20,141 bases of DNA from a virus. Both the position numbers and the translations under genes were made by a program. The notes beneath the pieces are model-generated. The model searched no databases. It was not told the origin of the DNA and was given only the letters and a program-made list of their open reading frames with translations. This document shows, piece by piece, positions 2 to 4,606 of the stretch (position 1 is the first letter of the stretch; every line of letters starts with the position of its first letter). The stretch lies in IMG/VR virus record IMGVR_UViG_3300047317_000106, positions 1-20,141 of that record, one strand, 5' to 3'.

Positions 2-529
2 ATGGCGCGCATCGAGCAATCAGAACTTCGCCCTATGTCCGACTTTGTGCTCGGCATCATGCAGCAGATGGAGCTTCAGAGCGCCATGCGTCCCGTTAGA
101 GGCAATTGGACCGACTGCTTCGACGCGCTCCGGCACAACTATCGTGTCTACGGCGAAGCCGTCGAGCGCGGCATCGTCGGATGGAGTGATCGTTACGACC
201 CATATGTCATCGCTGACTGGGTGATGATCTTCACGCCGATTGAAGCGGCCATCTGGAGTGACATTCGATCCTACGGACTGCCGTTCTGGCCGCAATTCCC
301 AGTCGGCCGCTATGTCGTCGACTTCGCCGATCCCGTTCGCAAGATCGCACTCGAATGCGATGGCGCCGCGTACCACGATCCCGTCAAAGACCGCGCGCGC
401 GATGCAGCGCTCGAAAAGATGGGCTGGACCACATACCGGATTCCGGGCCGTGAATGCTTCGAAGAGCACGTGACTATCCGTCGCTTGGATGGCACATCGT
501 TCAAGTTGGGAGACCTTCGTCATGCGTGA
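2..529 (+). CDS. DUF559 / Vsr-like PD-(D/E)XK endonuclease-fold protein (5' end uncertain)
   Basis: The C-terminal half (residues about 78-160) reads as a DUF559 domain, a small restriction-endonuclease-like fold related to very-short-patch repair nucleases. Visible landmarks are the leading Glu (E81 in TPIEAAIW), the core VGRYVVDFADP with D107, the ALECDG strand with E118 and D120, then a helix and the strand WTTYRIPG. This D...ExD arrangement fits a metal-dependent nuclease site. Residues 1-77 are not recognised. The ATG at base 2 lies at the window edge, so the true start may be upstream; another in-frame ATG is at 35. The last 8 bases overlap the start of the replication initiator, so it is probably co-transcribed and translationally coupled with the replication genes. 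A role in DNA processing or host DNA attack is inference. The family match is good; function in this phage is unknown. Confidence 0.75.
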   Translation: MARIEQSELRPMSDFVLGIMQQMELQSAMRPVRGNWTDCFDALRHNYRVYGEAVERGIVGWSDRYDPYVIADWVMIFTPIEAAIWSDIRSYGLPFWPQFPVGRYVVDFADPVRKIALECDGAAYHDPVKDRARDAALEKMGWTTYRIPGRECFEEHVTIRRLDGTSFKLGDLRHA

Positions 530-1457
530 TTACTCGAAGGTAAGCCCGAAATTCTGGATCGGAGATACCGGCAAGAAGTTGAAGAAGGCGGGCGCCGAAG
601 CGGTTGTAGTCGGTCTTTACCTGATGACTTCACCGCACTCGAACATGCTCGGCCTGTACTACCAGCCCGAATTGCTGATCGCTCACGAGACCGGATTGGG
701 CTTCGAAGGGGCTTCGAAGGGGCTTCGAAGCTGTATCGAATGTGGATTCTGTGCCTACGACCCCAGTTCCGAAATGGTTTGGGTGTTCGAAATGGCGAGT
801 TACCAGATTGCAGAGAGCCTTTCTGCGAACGATAAGCGATCTGTCGGTGTCCAGAACGAATACAACGCACTTCCTGAAAACCCTTATCTGGCGGGCTTTT
901 TCGACAAATATCAGACGGCCTTCAACCTCACGAAAAAGAGGGAAATGAAGGCTTTTGACCCAAGCCCCTCGGAAGCCCCTTCCAAGCCCCATCGAAGCCA
1001 AGAGCAGGAACAGGAGCAGGAACAGGAACAAGAGCAGGAACAAAACCCATTGTCGATTTCGAATCCGAAGTCGCACGTCGCCGACGAGATTTTCGCGTAC
1101 TGGCAAAAGCGCATGGACTCACCGCGCTCGAAGCTTGACGACAAGCGACGCAAGGCGATCAAGCGCGCTCTCGACATGGGGTACTCGCCCGCTGAACTGT
1201 GCAAGGCGATCAGGGGCTGCTCTCTGACGCCGCACAACATGGGCAAGAACGACCGCGGCGAAAAGTACAACGGCGTCGATTTGATCTTCCGCAGCGCGGA
1301 CCAGATCGACCGCTTCATCGCCAACGACACGACACCCCCGCGCGCCAATGGGCAAGCGAGCGGCGTACTGGCGCACAACGAGGCTGTCATGGCTGCATTC
1401 CTCGCCGACACGACGGCCACAGCGCACGACCCGATGACCATCGACATGGAGCACTGA
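522..1457 (+). CDS. O-like phage replication initiation protein
   Basis: This 311-residue protein looks like a phage replication initiator. The N-terminal part (residues about 1-105: FWIGDTGKKLKK, then alternating helix/strand up to VWVFEMASYQI) resembles the winged-helix DNA-binding domain of phage O/DnaD-type proteins. Residues 161-174 are seven Glu-Gln dipeptides forming a linker. The C-terminal domain (about 186-266: IFAYWQKRM, RRKAIKRALDMGYS, AIRGC, then a YNGVDLIFR strand and IDRFI) is a pattern common at the C-terminus of phage replication proteins. I chose the ATG at 522 because it follows a GGGAGA Shine-Dalgarno at 508-513 and overlaps the upstream stop by 8 bases; an in-frame ATG at 489 lacks such support. 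The next gene encodes a probable helicase loader, mirroring lambda O-P order. The coding DNA also carries 11-bp repeats annotated separately as a candidate origin. Confidence 0.75.
   Translation: MRDYSKVSPKFWIGDTGKKLKKAGAEAVVVGLYLMTSPHSNMLGLYYQPELLIAHETGLGFEGASKGLRSCIECGFCAYDPSSEMVWVFEMASYQIAESLSANDKRSVGVQNEYNALPENPYLAGFFDKYQTAFNLTKKREMKAFDPSPSEAPSKPHRSQEQEQEQEQEQEQEQNPLSISNPKSHVADEIFAYWQKRMDSPRSKLDDKRRKAIKRALDMGYSPAELCKAIRGCSLTPHNMGKNDRGEKYNGVDLIFRSADQIDRFIANDTTPPRANGQASGVLAHNEAVMAAFLADTTATAHDPMTIDMEH
697..730 (+). repeat. Iteron cluster A: three 11-bp direct repeats, (G/T)GGGCTTCGAA
   Basis: Three copies of (T/G)GGGCTTCGAAG start at 697, 708 and 719, exactly 11 bp apart, inside the initiator gene. 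Each contains the palindrome CTTCGAAG (701-708, 712-719, 723-730). Because 11 is not a multiple of 3, successive copies are read in different frames, so the encoded peptide is not repetitive. The repetition is therefore at DNA level. Spacing close to one helical turn is what stacked initiator binding sites would show. Confidence 0.7.
962..999 (-). repeat. Iteron cluster B: four 11-bp repeats of AAGCCCC, complement of GGGGCTT
   Basis: AAGCCCC starts at 962, 973 and 984, and a shortened AAGCC at 995: four units at an exact 11-bp period. AAGCCCC is the reverse complement of GGGGCTT, the core of cluster A, so the two clusters point towards each other across about 230 bp. The four bases between cores vary (TCGG, TTCC, ATCG). 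The last unit (ATCGAAGCC) is close to the complement of the cluster A unit. As in cluster A, the period breaks the reading frame. Confidence 0.7.
1002..1043 (+). repeat. Hexanucleotide tandem repeat (GARCAR) x7 coding for Glu-Gln repeats
   Basis: Seven six-base units of the form GA(G/A)CA(G/A) lie in frame in the initiator gene and encode (Glu-Gln)7. They begin two bases after iteron cluster B and form a flexible or helical linker between the DNA-binding and C-terminal domains. Units are interrupted by G/A third-position variation, which lowers slippage. Gain or loss of a unit would change linker length without breaking the frame. Confidence 0.85.
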
Positions 1458-1460
1458 GCC

Positions 1461-2207
1461 ATGCAAAACGCCGACAAAGCCGAATTCGTCAAGACGCTGA
1501 ACCTCTGCTACGCGACACTGCTCAAGCCGCTGCCGCCGGTTGAGTCGCTCTCGCTCTGGTTCACGATCCTTGAGCCGTATTCGATCGAGCAGGTGCGCGC
1601 AGCGCTCTCGCAGCACATGCGCGAAAGCAAGTTCCCGCCGGTCCCAGCGGATGTCGTGACTCGCCTGCCGAAGGAATCGGACGGACGGCCGGATGCGAAC
1701 GAAGCATGGGCAATCGCTCTGCGCAGCCGCGACGAGCGCGATACGGTGGTCTGGACTCAGGAATGCGCAGAGGCTTTCTCGATCGCATCCTCGGTGCTCG
1801 ACGGGGGCGATGAAGTTGGCGCGCGCATGGCGTTCAAGGCGGCGTACGAGCGGCTCATCGAAAAGTCCCGCGCTGCCGGTGCAAAGCCGCAATGGCTGAT
1901 GTCGTTGGGCCACGATCCGGCGCTGCGTGAGGCTGCGGCAAGCGACGCGGTACGCACTGGTCGCCTGTCGATCGAACATGCGCGCGTTGCGGTTCCGGCT
2001 TTGGCCGCGCCTCAGTCGACGGACGATCCACGCAAGGCGGAGGAAGGTCTCGCTCGCCTGCGCGCAATGGTTGGCGGCATCCCGAGCGCCGCCGAGAAGA
2101 TCGCTAGTGCACGCGCCGCGCAAGACGAACTGCAACGCAGCCTGCTCGAAATCGCGAAGAAGGCCGCGGCGCGCCGTGTCGCCGAATACCAGTCGGGCCG
2201 CGTATGA
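1461..2207 (+). CDS. Probable replicative helicase loader (P / G39P-like)
   Basis: This 248-residue protein follows the O-like initiator by three bases. Its N-terminus contains LWFTILEPY (residues 32-40), a helix beginning IEQVRAALSQHM, and FPPVPADVV (58-66). This Trp-Leu...hydrophobic helix...FPP pattern resembles the N-terminal domain of phage helicase loader/inhibitor proteins such as G39P and other P-type loaders. The rest is helix-rich, with a variable Ala/Arg-rich C-terminus (SAAEKIASARAAQDELQRSLLEIAKK) that may form a coiled coil. Known loaders bring the host DnaB helicase to the initiator-origin complex; that role is inferred from position and the N-terminal pattern. I see no AAA+ Walker motifs, so it is not a DnaC-type ATPase loader. 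The stop overlaps the next start as ATGA. Confidence 0.6.
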   Translation: MQNADKAEFVKTLNLCYATLLKPLPPVESLSLWFTILEPYSIEQVRAALSQHMRESKFPPVPADVVTRLPKESDGRPDANEAWAIALRSRDERDTVVWTQECAEAFSIASSVLDGGDEVGARMAFKAAYERLIEKSRAAGAKPQWLMSLGHDPALREAAASDAVRTGRLSIEHARVAVPALAAPQSTDDPRKAEEGLARLRAMVGGIPSAAEKIASARAAQDELQRSLLEIAKKAAARRVAEYQSGRV

Positions 2208-2518: not shown

Positions 2519-2574
2519 CCACCACTACGCCCGCGCGCGAGGTTTCCGCAGGCCCTAAGGAGCAAGCATGCTGA
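2515..2574 (+). CDS. 19-codon mini-ORF linking the Cys-rich gene to the RuvC-like gene
   Basis: The ATG at 2515 overlaps the preceding stop as ATGA. The frame runs for 19 codons (MTTTTPAREVSAGPKEQAC) and stops at 2572-2574, just inside the RuvC-like gene that begins at 2568. The Shine-Dalgarno of the RuvC-like gene (AAGGAG at 2558-2563) lies within it. It probably acts, if translated, by keeping ribosomes moving to the next start rather than as a functional peptide. It has no recognisable family, and chance cannot be excluded. Confidence 0.3.
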   Translation: MTTTTPAREVSAGPKEQAC

Positions 2575-3053
2575 TCTGCGGAATAGACCCCGGCCTCACT
2601 GGCGCCGTCGCTTTCATCGATCACAACGGCTTGCGCTGCGTGTTTGATCTTCCGACGAAGCCGATTGCCGATGCTGGCCCTAAGGCACTCGTCAAACGCC
2701 AATGCGACGGCCGTGCGCTCGCCGCGCTGATGCGCGCTCACCATGCGGCTGATGAGCCGGCACTGGTCGTCATCGAGGACGTGCAGGCAATCGGCGGCAG
2801 TGCGATCCAGACCATGGGCTCGATGATGCACACCAAGGGGCTCATAGAGGGCGTGCTGGCCGCCAAGGGATACGACGTGGTGTTCGTGCGTCCGCAGGCG
2901 TGGAAGCGGTTCTACGGTCTGTCTGCAGACAAGGCTCAGTGCCTGGCTATGGCGAAGCAGCTTTACCCGTGCGATGACATTCGACTGGTGAAGCATCACA
3001 ACCGCGCTGAGGCTGCGTTGATCGCGCGTTACGGCATGAGGCATTTCGTATGA
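2568..3053 (+). CDS. RuvC-like Holliday junction resolvase
   Basis: This 161-residue protein has the RNase H-like fold signature of RuvC-type crossover junction endonucleases. The first strand is ICGIDPGLTGAVAF with catalytic D7. The central strand is ALVVIEDVQA with E70, followed by the helix GSMMHTKGLIEGVL. The C-terminal HHNRAEAALIARY segment carries E148 at the usual last acidic position (Asp in many bacterial RuvCs, often Glu in phage versions). Length is typical of phage RuvC-like proteins. It would act in the cytoplasm as a dimer, cutting four-way junctions made during replication or recombination before packaging. A clear AAGGAG site precedes the ATG, and the stop overlaps the next start as ATGA. 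Confidence 0.88.
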   Translation: MLICGIDPGLTGAVAFIDHNGLRCVFDLPTKPIADAGPKALVKRQCDGRALAALMRAHHAADEPALVVIEDVQAIGGSAIQTMGSMMHTKGLIEGVLAAKGYDVVFVRPQAWKRFYGLSADKAQCLAMAKQLYPCDDIRLVKHHNRAEAALIARYGMRHFV

Positions 3054-3322
3054 AAACTCTATCGATTCTCTTCGCCACAGCATTCCTTTGCGCATCGCTG
3101 CTTTCGGCGTGCGACCCGAGCGACGCCGAAGTCGACGCGACGCAAGATGCTCAGTGCGTGAAGTGGGGCGCGCCGCGCGGGTCGCACGACTACATCCAAT
3201 GCCGCGCGACACTCGCCGTCAACTACCACCGTGAGCAAGAGGCAAACGACAACTCAGCGGCCGCTGGCGTGGCGATAGGAATGGCCGCAGGAGCTGCTGC
3301 AAGCGCAGGAGCGCGGCGATGA
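3050..3322 (+). CDS. Small phage lipoprotein, predicted inner-membrane retained
   Basis: The N-terminus is a lipoprotein signal peptide: MKT, a hydrophobic core (LSILFATAFLCASL) and a lipobox LSAC with the lipidated Cys at residue 21. Asp follows at position +2, which in enterobacteria keeps lipoproteins in the inner membrane. The mature part is only 70 residues, with two more cysteines (in AQCVKWG and YIQCRA) that could form a disulfide, and an Ala/Gly-rich C-terminal stretch (AAAGVAIGMAAGAAASAG) resembling a glycine zipper. It overlaps both neighbours by ATGA and sits in the early region, far from any lysis gene, so an Rz1 spanin is unlikely. A superinfection-exclusion or membrane-modifying role is inference. 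Confidence 0.7.
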   Translation: MKTLSILFATAFLCASLLSACDPSDAEVDATQDAQCVKWGAPRGSHDYIQCRATLAVNYHREQEANDNSAAAGVAIGMAAGAAASAGARR

Positions 3323-3558
3323 ACATCCTCCAGCTCGCCGGCATGTTGCCCCGCGACCCTCAGTTCCGCGAATGGGCCGCCTCGCACGCCGAGGTCGAGC
3401 CGCTCACGGTCGACGAAGCAGCGGAGTTCATCCGCGTCGTCTGCCAGATCGATTCCCGCCGCGCACTCGCGACCGACAAGGACGCAGAGGCGCGGTTTCA
3501 TCAGTTCTTGCGCCGGCCCTTCGTAGCCTGGCGGGAACAGCAGGCCCAACCCGCATAG
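3319..3558 (+). CDS. Conserved-looking small phage protein, unknown function
   Basis: This 79-residue protein (MNILQLAGMLPRDPQFREW...) starts in an ATGA overlap with the lipoprotein gene. It is predicted mostly helical, with a block of acidic residues (VEPLTVDEAAEFIRVVCQI) followed by a basic end (RRALATDKDAEARFHQFLRRPFVAWREQ). I do not recognise a named domain. Codon usage matches its neighbours, and the tight overlap supports it being a real member of the early operon. The RRP..AWREQ ending suggests a possible partner- or nucleic-acid-binding helix, but this is weak. Confidence 0.65.
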   Translation: MNILQLAGMLPRDPQFREWAASHAEVEPLTVDEAAEFIRVVCQIDSRRALATDKDAEARFHQFLRRPFVAWREQQAQPA

Positions 3559-3568
3559 GAGACCCACC

Positions 3569-3823
3569 ATGGCAAGCGAAATCGATCAGCGCACCCGTCA
3601 TAACCACGAGGCAGCGATGCTGCACAACGACCGCCTCATCGCGGGCCACATCAACCAAGCGCCGCAGAAGGGTGATTTCGACGCTTGGGTTTGGCCAATG
3701 GCAGCAGATGCTGAACTGCAAGGCGAGCGCGAAGCCGCGGCGACAGGCGGACAATTGCCCGCCCCGCATAGCGAAGCCATCGACCGGGCTGCATACGATC
3801 GCTTCATGCGGAGCCTCGGCTGA
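3569..3823 (+). CDS. Small phage protein, unknown function
   Basis: The 84-residue product (MASEIDQRTRHNHEAAMLHNDR...) is preceded by a good AGGAGA Shine-Dalgarno at 3557-3562 and ends in a TGATG overlap with the next gene. It is hydrophilic and His-rich at the N-terminus (residues 10-31), has an aromatic patch FDAWVWPM near residues 37-45, and ends with a helix (EAIDRAAYDRFMRSLG). I see no domain I can name. Position argues for an early accessory function. Confidence 0.62.
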   Translation: MASEIDQRTRHNHEAAMLHNDRLIAGHINQAPQKGDFDAWVWPMAADAELQGEREAAATGGQLPAPHSEAIDRAAYDRFMRSLG

Positions 3824-4023
3824 TGTGCTACGCCAATCCCGCCGAATCCCTCGCCATCGCCCGAGCTCGCATGACGCCCGAGCAGTGGGCGAAGTTTGAG
3901 GCGGATTTTGAGCACTTCTGCGCGTATAGCGGGCTCTCTGACGGCAGCAACTCGGCGAAGGGAATCCGCGATGACGTGTTCGCCTGGGCCAAGTGGGCCT
4001 ATCTCTGCGGGAAGGGGCTGTGA
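3823..4023 (+). CDS. Small phage protein, unknown function
   Basis: This 66-residue protein (MCYANPAESLAIARARMTPEQWAKFEADF...) is compact, helical and rich in aromatics (W, F, Y), with three cysteines. It looks like a small soluble folded protein rather than a membrane one. It overlaps the upstream stop by one base (TGATG) and the downstream gene in the same way, so translation of the three small genes from 3569 to 4220 is probably coupled. No family was recognised. Confidence 0.6.
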   Translation: MCYANPAESLAIARARMTPEQWAKFEADFEHFCAYSGLSDGSNSAKGIRDDVFAWAKWAYLCGKGL

Positions 4024-4220
4024 TGCCACTACCGACATTCAAGCCGATGAACGGGCGCCCGGATCGCCTGCGCCTGAACTGCGAGACACCCGAAGCGCAG
4101 TCGGTCAGCGGCACGCGCGGCGGCCTGAAGAAGCTCGACGCGAACCAGATCGAGGCGATATGGGATGAAGTGCAGCTTCACACGCGGATGACATTTCGAT
4201 GGACGCCGCCGGGCAACTGA
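4023..4220 (+). CDS. Small phage protein, unknown function
   Basis: I place the start at the ATG in the TGATG overlap at 4021-4025, giving 65 residues (MPLPTFKPMNGRPDRLRLNC...). An in-frame ATG at 3993 lies within the upstream gene and has no separate support. The product is basic and polar, with a short amphipathic helix (KKLDANQIEAIWDEVQLHTRM) near residues 36-56. No known domain was recognised. It is the last gene of the tightly overlapping early string; a gap of about 70 bases follows. Confidence 0.55.
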   Translation: MPLPTFKPMNGRPDRLRLNCETPEAQSVSGTRGGLKKLDANQIEAIWDEVQLHTRMTFRWTPPGN

Positions 4221-4294
4221 GCACCACGCCACGCCGACGCGTACTCGGCCGCTGGTCCCTGCGATACGGGCAGCACTCACAACGGGGAATGACC

Positions 4295-4606
4295 ATGCGC
4301 CGCCGCAAACACCTGATGCCTTTGACGCTCGACAGCCTGCGCACGCACATGGCTCCGGGCAGGTCCTACACCTCGGTCATGCTCGCCTGCATCTTCGACG
4401 GCTCGCCCGCTGCCATCGCAGACATGCTGGAGACGCTCAGCGCGGCAGGCGATATTCGCAGCCACATCGCCTACCGCGAGACGCGGCCGGAGCGCCGCCG
4501 GTACTGGATCGCGCCTCCCAAGCGTCTCACGCCCGCGGAACGGGGCGAGTTGCGCGGCTACGACCTGATGCGCTTCCCGCGCCTCGCGATGGCCTCTCGC
4601 CGCTGA
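4295..4606 (+). CDS. Small basic protein with winged-helix-like fold, possible regulator
   Basis: From the ATG at 4295 the product is 103 residues: a basic start (MRRRKHLMPL), two to three helices (LTLDSLRTHMAPG, SYTSVMLACIF, SPAAIADMLETLSAAGDI), then a probable beta wing (RSHIAYRETR, RRRYWIAPP). This order, with a recognition-helix-like SPAAIADMLETLSAAGDI segment, fits a winged helix-turn-helix DNA-binding protein. GGGGA at 4284-4288 sits six bases before 4295, favouring that start; in-frame ATGs at 4289 and 4199 are alternatives, the latter overlapping the upstream gene. It is the last gene before the first TTCCCGCTGCCTA site, so a role in switching to late transcription is attractive but inferred. 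An accessory DNA-binding protein is the main alternative. Confidence 0.6.
   Translation: MRRRKHLMPLTLDSLRTHMAPGRSYTSVMLACIFDGSPAAIADMLETLSAAGDIRSHIAYRETRPERRRYWIAPPKRLTPAERGELRGYDLMRFPRLAMASRR

Follow-up and report, generated by a model that had tools for sequence, protein, structure and literature searches.

Replication origins that lie within the gene of their own initiator have experimental support in lambda O (PMC7466680), in oriL of SPP1 gp38 (PMC6316719) and in pSK41 RepA (PMC5703833). In lambda the origin sits midway along the initiator gene, an AT-rich strand adjoins the iterons, which are imperfect inverted repeats with G-tracts, and the loader gene is adjacent (PMC7466680; L279). 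pSK41 RepA is a DnaD-like protein with a winged-helix N-terminal domain; its binding sites are central in the rep gene, and the linker encoded by the origin is dispensable as protein (PMC5703833). DnaA-boxes followed by DnaA-trios offer another parallel: behind the double-stranded sites there is a tract of short period with a presumed role in contacting single-stranded DNA (PMC10797057).

Here we describe a virus record of 20,141 bases, analysed as a whole and referred to as the window, in which a gene for an O-like initiator carries two clusters of a short repeat and, behind them, a hexanucleotide tract. We put at about 85% the probability that these repeats are the iterons of a replication origin embedded in the initiator's own coding sequence. 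The locus resembles lambda in its near-palindromic, G-rich repeats within the initiator gene, in the AT-rich DNA next to them and, probably, in the adjacent loader gene; with pSK41 RepA it shares repeats inside the gene and a predicted winged-helix N-terminal domain. In lambda a single array of four 18-bp iterons is annotated; the window has two arrays of 9-mers with an 11-bp pitch, of which one lies in winged-helix codons, as well as the hexamer tract, and lambda O contains no AAGGGGCTT within one mismatch. The site differs from that of pSK41 RepA, and neither the window initiator nor any of 40 relatives gives a RepA_N Pfam match. Compared with the DnaA-trio, 3'-(G/A)AT-5', the tract is mostly CAR/GAR with a period of 6, and the initiator is not DnaA; the tract has A at nearly every third base and C or G as first bases, and some members have other hexamers. 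New with respect to known internal origins are the site, the pitch, the split layout, in which one array occupies codons for a predicted DNA-binding helix of a folded domain, and a tract that is independent of frame. A literature search confined to open full texts, by the sequence of the site and by intragenic phage iterons, returned no report of this site.

Repeats in the initiator gene

The repeat unit is a quasi-palindromic 9-mer, AAGGGGCTT or its reverse complement AAGCCCCTT (AAG-GGG-CTT), at a pitch of 11 bp (Table 1). The initial annotation of the window had listed GGGGCTT cores at 697, 708 and 719 and the complementary AAGCCCC at 962, 973, 984 and 995. Five of these seven cores, those at 708, 719, 962, 973 and 984, are exact; position 697 has a degenerate version (TGGGCTT), and at 995 there is only half a unit. 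The period of 11 bp that it had noticed is seen in the 9-mers at 706/717 and 962/973/984. Elsewhere in the whole 20 kb there are two 9-mers within one mismatch, at 2835 and 4012. Among 20,000 synonymous recodings of the initiator gene that kept the protein, one 11-bp pair arose in 1.75%, two in 2/20,000 and three, the observed number, zero times; the motif for this single-gene test was derived from the finding itself, and it is the relatives that provide independent confirmation.

Table 1. Coordinates of the features discussed, numbered from the first base of the window
Feature	Position	Strand	Description
Replication initiator gene	522..1457	+	311 aa, O-like; winged helix predicted at the N-terminus, linker disordered from about residue 141-145, O-like C-terminal domain
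Putative iteron cluster 1	695..736	+	In the codons for residues 60-73, the predicted recognition helix; units ATTGGGCTT 695-703 (degenerate), AAGGGGCTT 706-714 and 717-725 (exact), AAGCTGTAT 728-736 (degenerate)
Low-GC spacer between clusters	741..960	.	50% GC at 741-780, 48.3% at 781-960
Putative iteron cluster 2	962..999	-	In codons of the disordered linker; units AAGCCCCTC 962-970, AAGCCCCTT 973-981, AAGCCCCAT 984-992 (9-mers of AAGCCCCTN/AAGCCCCAT type, period 11), half unit AAGCC 995-999
Hexanucleotide tract (GARCAR)n	1000..1045	+	Directly after cluster 2
Helicase-loader gene (probable)	1461..2207	+	Adjoins the initiator gene

The two clusters flank unusually AT-rich DNA. The low GC content previously remarked on at 781-960 holds on measurement, given that the window as a whole has 62.6% GC and just 0.11% of its 180-mers are lower. 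In relatives the spacer has a mean GC of 0.527, against 0.602 downstream, and is the lower of the two in 94% of 123 genes. The (GARCAR)n tract had been overlooked.

Translation of the initiator probably starts at 522 (MRDYSKV; MRDYSKVSPKFW) and not at 489, since this start is common to relatives. The N-terminus matches PHROGs 25210, 12196 and 1701, the C-terminus PHROGs 16167 (replication initiation protein) and 18020; the match to phrog_18020, 'replication initiation O-like', is restricted to residues 138-267 (E 3e-5). An AlphaFold2 model of residues 1-159 is a winged helix (pLDDT 87) with helices at 50-57, 60-73 and 106-116 and wing strands at 77-80 and 85-88, of which helix 60-73 is the predicted recognition helix. 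A PDB profile search with the initiator gave no match, and a Foldseek search with the model returned generic winged helices only. VIA-align likewise pairs the model with generic winged helices (Z up to 6.9), and residues 1-90 with the RepA structures 4pql, 4pt7 and 5kbj at Z 5.7-5.8 (rmsd 3.3-3.4 over 85-86 residues). The RepA plasmid initiator has the widest aligned range among initiators, its Z being tied with generic winged helices, and a Z below 8 may reflect just the common winged-helix arrangement. That a loader gene is adjacent, as had been suggested, is plausible: the product of 1461-2207 matches phrog_6028 (labelled unknown function, E 1.7e-56), and the basis for calling it a loader is a partial match of residues 1-88 to the helicase loader phrog_2289 (E 2.5e-9).

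Conservation of the repeats and of the tract

Among 137 non-redundant relatives the cluster 1 pair at 11 bp is present in 113 and the cluster 2 pair in 109, compared with 4.9 and 5.5 under a null in which each gene is recoded with its own codons. A set of 72 genes from named bacterial genomes, collected with search peptides outside the repeats, contains cluster 1 in 55 and cluster 2 in 53, with about 2 expected. Neighbouring pairs keep the 11-bp spacing in 161/198 and 117/124 cases, and the units of cluster 2 stand at -11, -22 and -33 from the terminal AAGCC. Synonymous constraint in the initiator gene peaks at codons 60-73, that is, at cluster 1. Over seven codons centred on codon 65 synonymous identity is 0.46 above expectation (z 65), whereas outside the clusters z stays under 11 in most of the gene; the permutation carries no correction for shared ancestry, so that the contrast in z within the gene is what counts. 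Synonymous identity reaches 0.98 at E62, 0.96 at G63 and 1.00 at K66, and the one codon left free, S65, is placed where the repeat unit has its 2-nt spacer.

Cluster 2 varies in an instructive manner. At least one of its units reads AAGGGGCTT instead of AAGCCCCTT in 42 of 132 genes, the 11-bp register is unchanged, and the encoded peptide turns from APSKPL into one resembling EGASKGL. Thus the 9-mer and the pitch are constrained and the facing layout is not; the facing orientation stressed in the initial annotation is the majority state rather than the conserved property. The same annotation had reasoned that a period of 11 bp shifts the reading frame at each repeat, so that selection must be on DNA. 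Selection on DNA is upheld by the tests of recoding and synonymous constraint, but the frame argument is no proof by itself, because the cluster 1 peptide EGASKGL is itself conserved. The comparison of related phages that it had proposed does find spacing kept while the encoded peptide changes, in the flips of cluster 2. Taken together, the comparisons show that selection acting on DNA maintains the 9-mer along with its pitch of 11 bp.

In 116 of 140 relatives the tract stands at this same position, behind the last iteron; one homologue set was found with QEQEQEQE among the query peptides, so that the frequency of the tract is biased there, and the named-genome set is free of this bias. Most relatives translate it as QEQEQE, six as GTGTGT or GAGAGA (L050, L060, L064, L116, L170, L240) and four as VTVT, VAVA or VSVS (L099, L262, L263, L270). 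In L050, L060 and L064, checked by eye, the C-terminal domain downstream resembles that of relatives with the normal frame. As judged from these translations, the DNA of the tract is kept independently of its reading frame, and we regard it as a candidate strand-opening or ssDNA-contact element. The tract in the window is only moderately AT-rich (49% GC at 1000-1050), which counts against an internal origin. In the initiator gene of L117 the tract after cluster 2 has a period of 7 and keeps CAG in each unit (CAGATAACAGTAAACAGAGAACAG). That the tract supplies an array of start sites for DnaG primase (CTG on the other strand) is no more than a guess; the idea fits the QE tracts and that of L117, but not the GAAAAAG tracts.

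Distant homologues such as L269, L272 and L277 have cluster 2 without cluster 1. A few homologues are devoid of both clusters (L267 and L276, with L275 doubtful); these count against an internal origin and may use other sites. The distribution indicates that cluster 2 and the tract are the core, to which most members of the proteobacterial family add cluster 1. The longest array seen, ten AAGCCCCTT-type units, is at about 421-595 of the L170 initiator gene.

Distribution and classes of the site

Scanning IMG/VR for the bare DNA pattern AAGGGGCTTNNAAGGGGCTT, an 11-bp pair, yields at least 120 stretches. Among the matches listed, 109/120 fall in initiator-like ORFs, a designation that rests on blastp to a set including some of these same ORFs, and most of the remaining stretches appear to be initiators with a longer antisense frame. 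By independent tblastn, 52 of 80 listed loci match the window protein, a few of them weakly. Nine divergent carrier ORFs were compared with PHROGs: for five the matching families are named replication initiation, replisome organizer or DnaD-like, for one the sole match is a family of unknown function, and three are without a match. As controls, 12-bp spacing gives 26 stretches with 13 in initiators, 10-bp spacing 18 with 3, and a scrambled 9-mer 33 with none. The palindromic pattern AAGGGGCTTNNAAGCCCCTT has 89 matches, 11 of them in initiators, and is not used as evidence because the others may be terminator-like hairpins. Homologues that carry the site come from named hosts in the Pseudomonadota, Desulfobacterota, Planctomycetota (Gemmata), Nitrospirota and Synergistota, among others. 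The scan indicates that phages which otherwise differ greatly have their initiator genes marked by the same 9-mer. The plasmid tblastn matches that were inspected are a prophage contig or phage-plasmids; a circular Brevibacillus phage-plasmid with parM, which carries a class-B variant, is no more than suggestive.

The scans also brought up further repeats. The scrambled control AACGGGGTTNNAACGGGGTT marks a recurrent repeat, TTTAAACGGGGTTTAAACGGGGTT, in Mu-like-looking phages, and another repeat, TTCTAACGGGGTTCTAACGGGGTT (L408-L440). The 10-bp pattern AAGGGGCTTNAAGGGGCTT matches one recurrent element on many short contigs with similar translations (KPLKAPFKPFGKPFCGQSSSWFG; L305-L321). On L149, AAGGGGCTT palindromes and pairs lie at 3280-4330, outside any long ORF.

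In Bacillota phages, related initiators carry other short quasi-palindromes at this position, with a comparable pitch and, once more, a purine-rich 6-bp tract behind them. ATACGGTAT is repeated at 11 bp in Geobacillus E2, Listeria LP-030-3, Exiguobacterium 137 and a gut phage, and CGATACGT at about 12 bp in Geobacillus PK5.1, D6E, C. difficile CD1801 and Bacillus 268TH008. Silence has a TGCGCA type at 12 bp, and Klebsiella 12.4 has AAAGGGTTC. Xanthomonas PBR31, with GATATC-type repeats at 11 bp, has the C-terminal domain of the window initiator but not the N-terminal one. In TP901-1 rep and Listeria A118 gp49, both studied experimentally, these sites are absent. Alignment shows that the class of site follows a short segment behind the wing, where NxN or LxPxDNR goes with AAGGGGCTT, SPK with ATACGGTAT and GGKP with CGATACGT; the correlation comes from few sequences and carries no phylogenetic correction. 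Three plasmid records that were fetched afterwards and not used to form the rule agree with it. On these comparisons the 9-mer changes with the initiator subfamily. The presumed recognition helix is near-identical in L452 (AAGGGGCTT) and Geobacillus E2 (ATACGGTAT) and varies widely among users of AAGGGGCTT, a point against the proposed internal origin.

A proposed internal origin and its alternatives

We propose that the N-terminal winged-helix domain would bind the 9-mers with one protomer, or one dimer, per helical turn. With sites one turn apart, the protomers would line up along the same side of the double helix, and a unit could work in either orientation because the 9-mer is nearly symmetric. 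Cluster 2 would be covered by a nucleoprotein complex, and most members would build another over cluster 1; the low-GC spacer and the tract would be strained as a result. One melted strand would then be held by the initiator along the 6-nt repeats, while its C-terminal domain and the adjacent loader would deliver the host DnaB helicase.

Could the repeats be explained otherwise? One alternative is that they arise from protein conservation, of a helix (EGASKGL) and of a linker peptide (SEAPSKPHRSQEQEQ), combined with biased codons; the cluster 1 peptide is conserved, and A64, G67 and L68 are invariant in A1. This explanation is already refuted: recoding with each gene's own codons abolishes the pattern, the codons of E62, G63 and K66 are fixed far beyond their amino acids, and the DNA is kept while unit flips and tract frames (QEQE, GTGT, VTVT) alter the peptide. 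Alternatively, the 9-mers could be operators at which the initiator or another phage regulator represses transcription of the replication genes. RNA polymerase can be blocked by intragenic arrays, and autoregulation is also frequent in iteron initiators. The arrays, however, are 170-480 bp inside the gene and not at a promoter, and a low-GC spacer with a strand-specific hexamer tract suits an origin better; as a replacement for the origin we consider operators improbable, and as an additional role operator function could exist. It is conceivable too that a conserved host factor, not the phage initiator, binds the sites, given that the same 9-mer accompanies proteins less than 30% identical in hosts of several phyla. 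Yet in initiators from Bacillota hosts the 9-mer switches to ATACGGTAT or CGATACGT along with the post-wing segment, and we know of no universal host factor with a AAGGGGCTT site, which counts against this idea as well; we hold it to be very improbable.

A rival of another kind accepts the origin, made of iterons and AT-rich DNA alone, and takes the tract to be a neutral microsatellite in a tolerant linker. Its copy number does vary greatly, and 6-bp repeats expand readily by slippage. Against this stand its constant position after the last iteron in so many relatives, the presence there of other hexamers in divergent families (GATAAG, GAAAAAG, AGTAAT), and the retention of CAG in L117 in spite of the period of 7. 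We think a neutral tract rather unlikely, though it deserves more weight than operators or a host factor.

Returning to the origin inside the initiator gene, a wider proposition may be put forward tentatively, as possible but short of an even chance. The 9-mer at its 11-bp pitch and the tract, which dictates the linker peptide in any frame, may constitute a deeply conserved phage 'origin code', shared by initiators less than 30% identical across several phyla, its class set by the post-wing segment and not by the canonical recognition helix. Many members would have a second array in the codons of that helix, so that the same bases encode part of the DNA-binding domain and its target. Quite apart from such a code, the repeats inside the initiator gene would provide a sequence signature for locating the replication origin in a great many phages that lack annotation. 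The flipped units, frame-shifted tracts and switched site classes form a natural series for studying how iteron initiators read and open DNA. The locus is also a strong case of codons constrained by a predicted binding site within a folded, conserved domain, a constraint that misleads codon- and protein-based analyses of evolution.

Some neighbouring and related genes merit a remark. The ORF at 2-529, upstream of the initiator, matches DUF559/MTES_1575, with a restriction-endonuclease-like fold (E about 8e-11), and 2568-3053 encodes a RuvC-like Holliday junction resolvase (phrog_1770, E 6e-34). In Acinetobacter phage YMC/09/02/B1251 (L447 1501-1768) the initiator start is annotated 267 bases too far downstream, and the annotated protein thereby loses most of the winged helix together with cluster 1.
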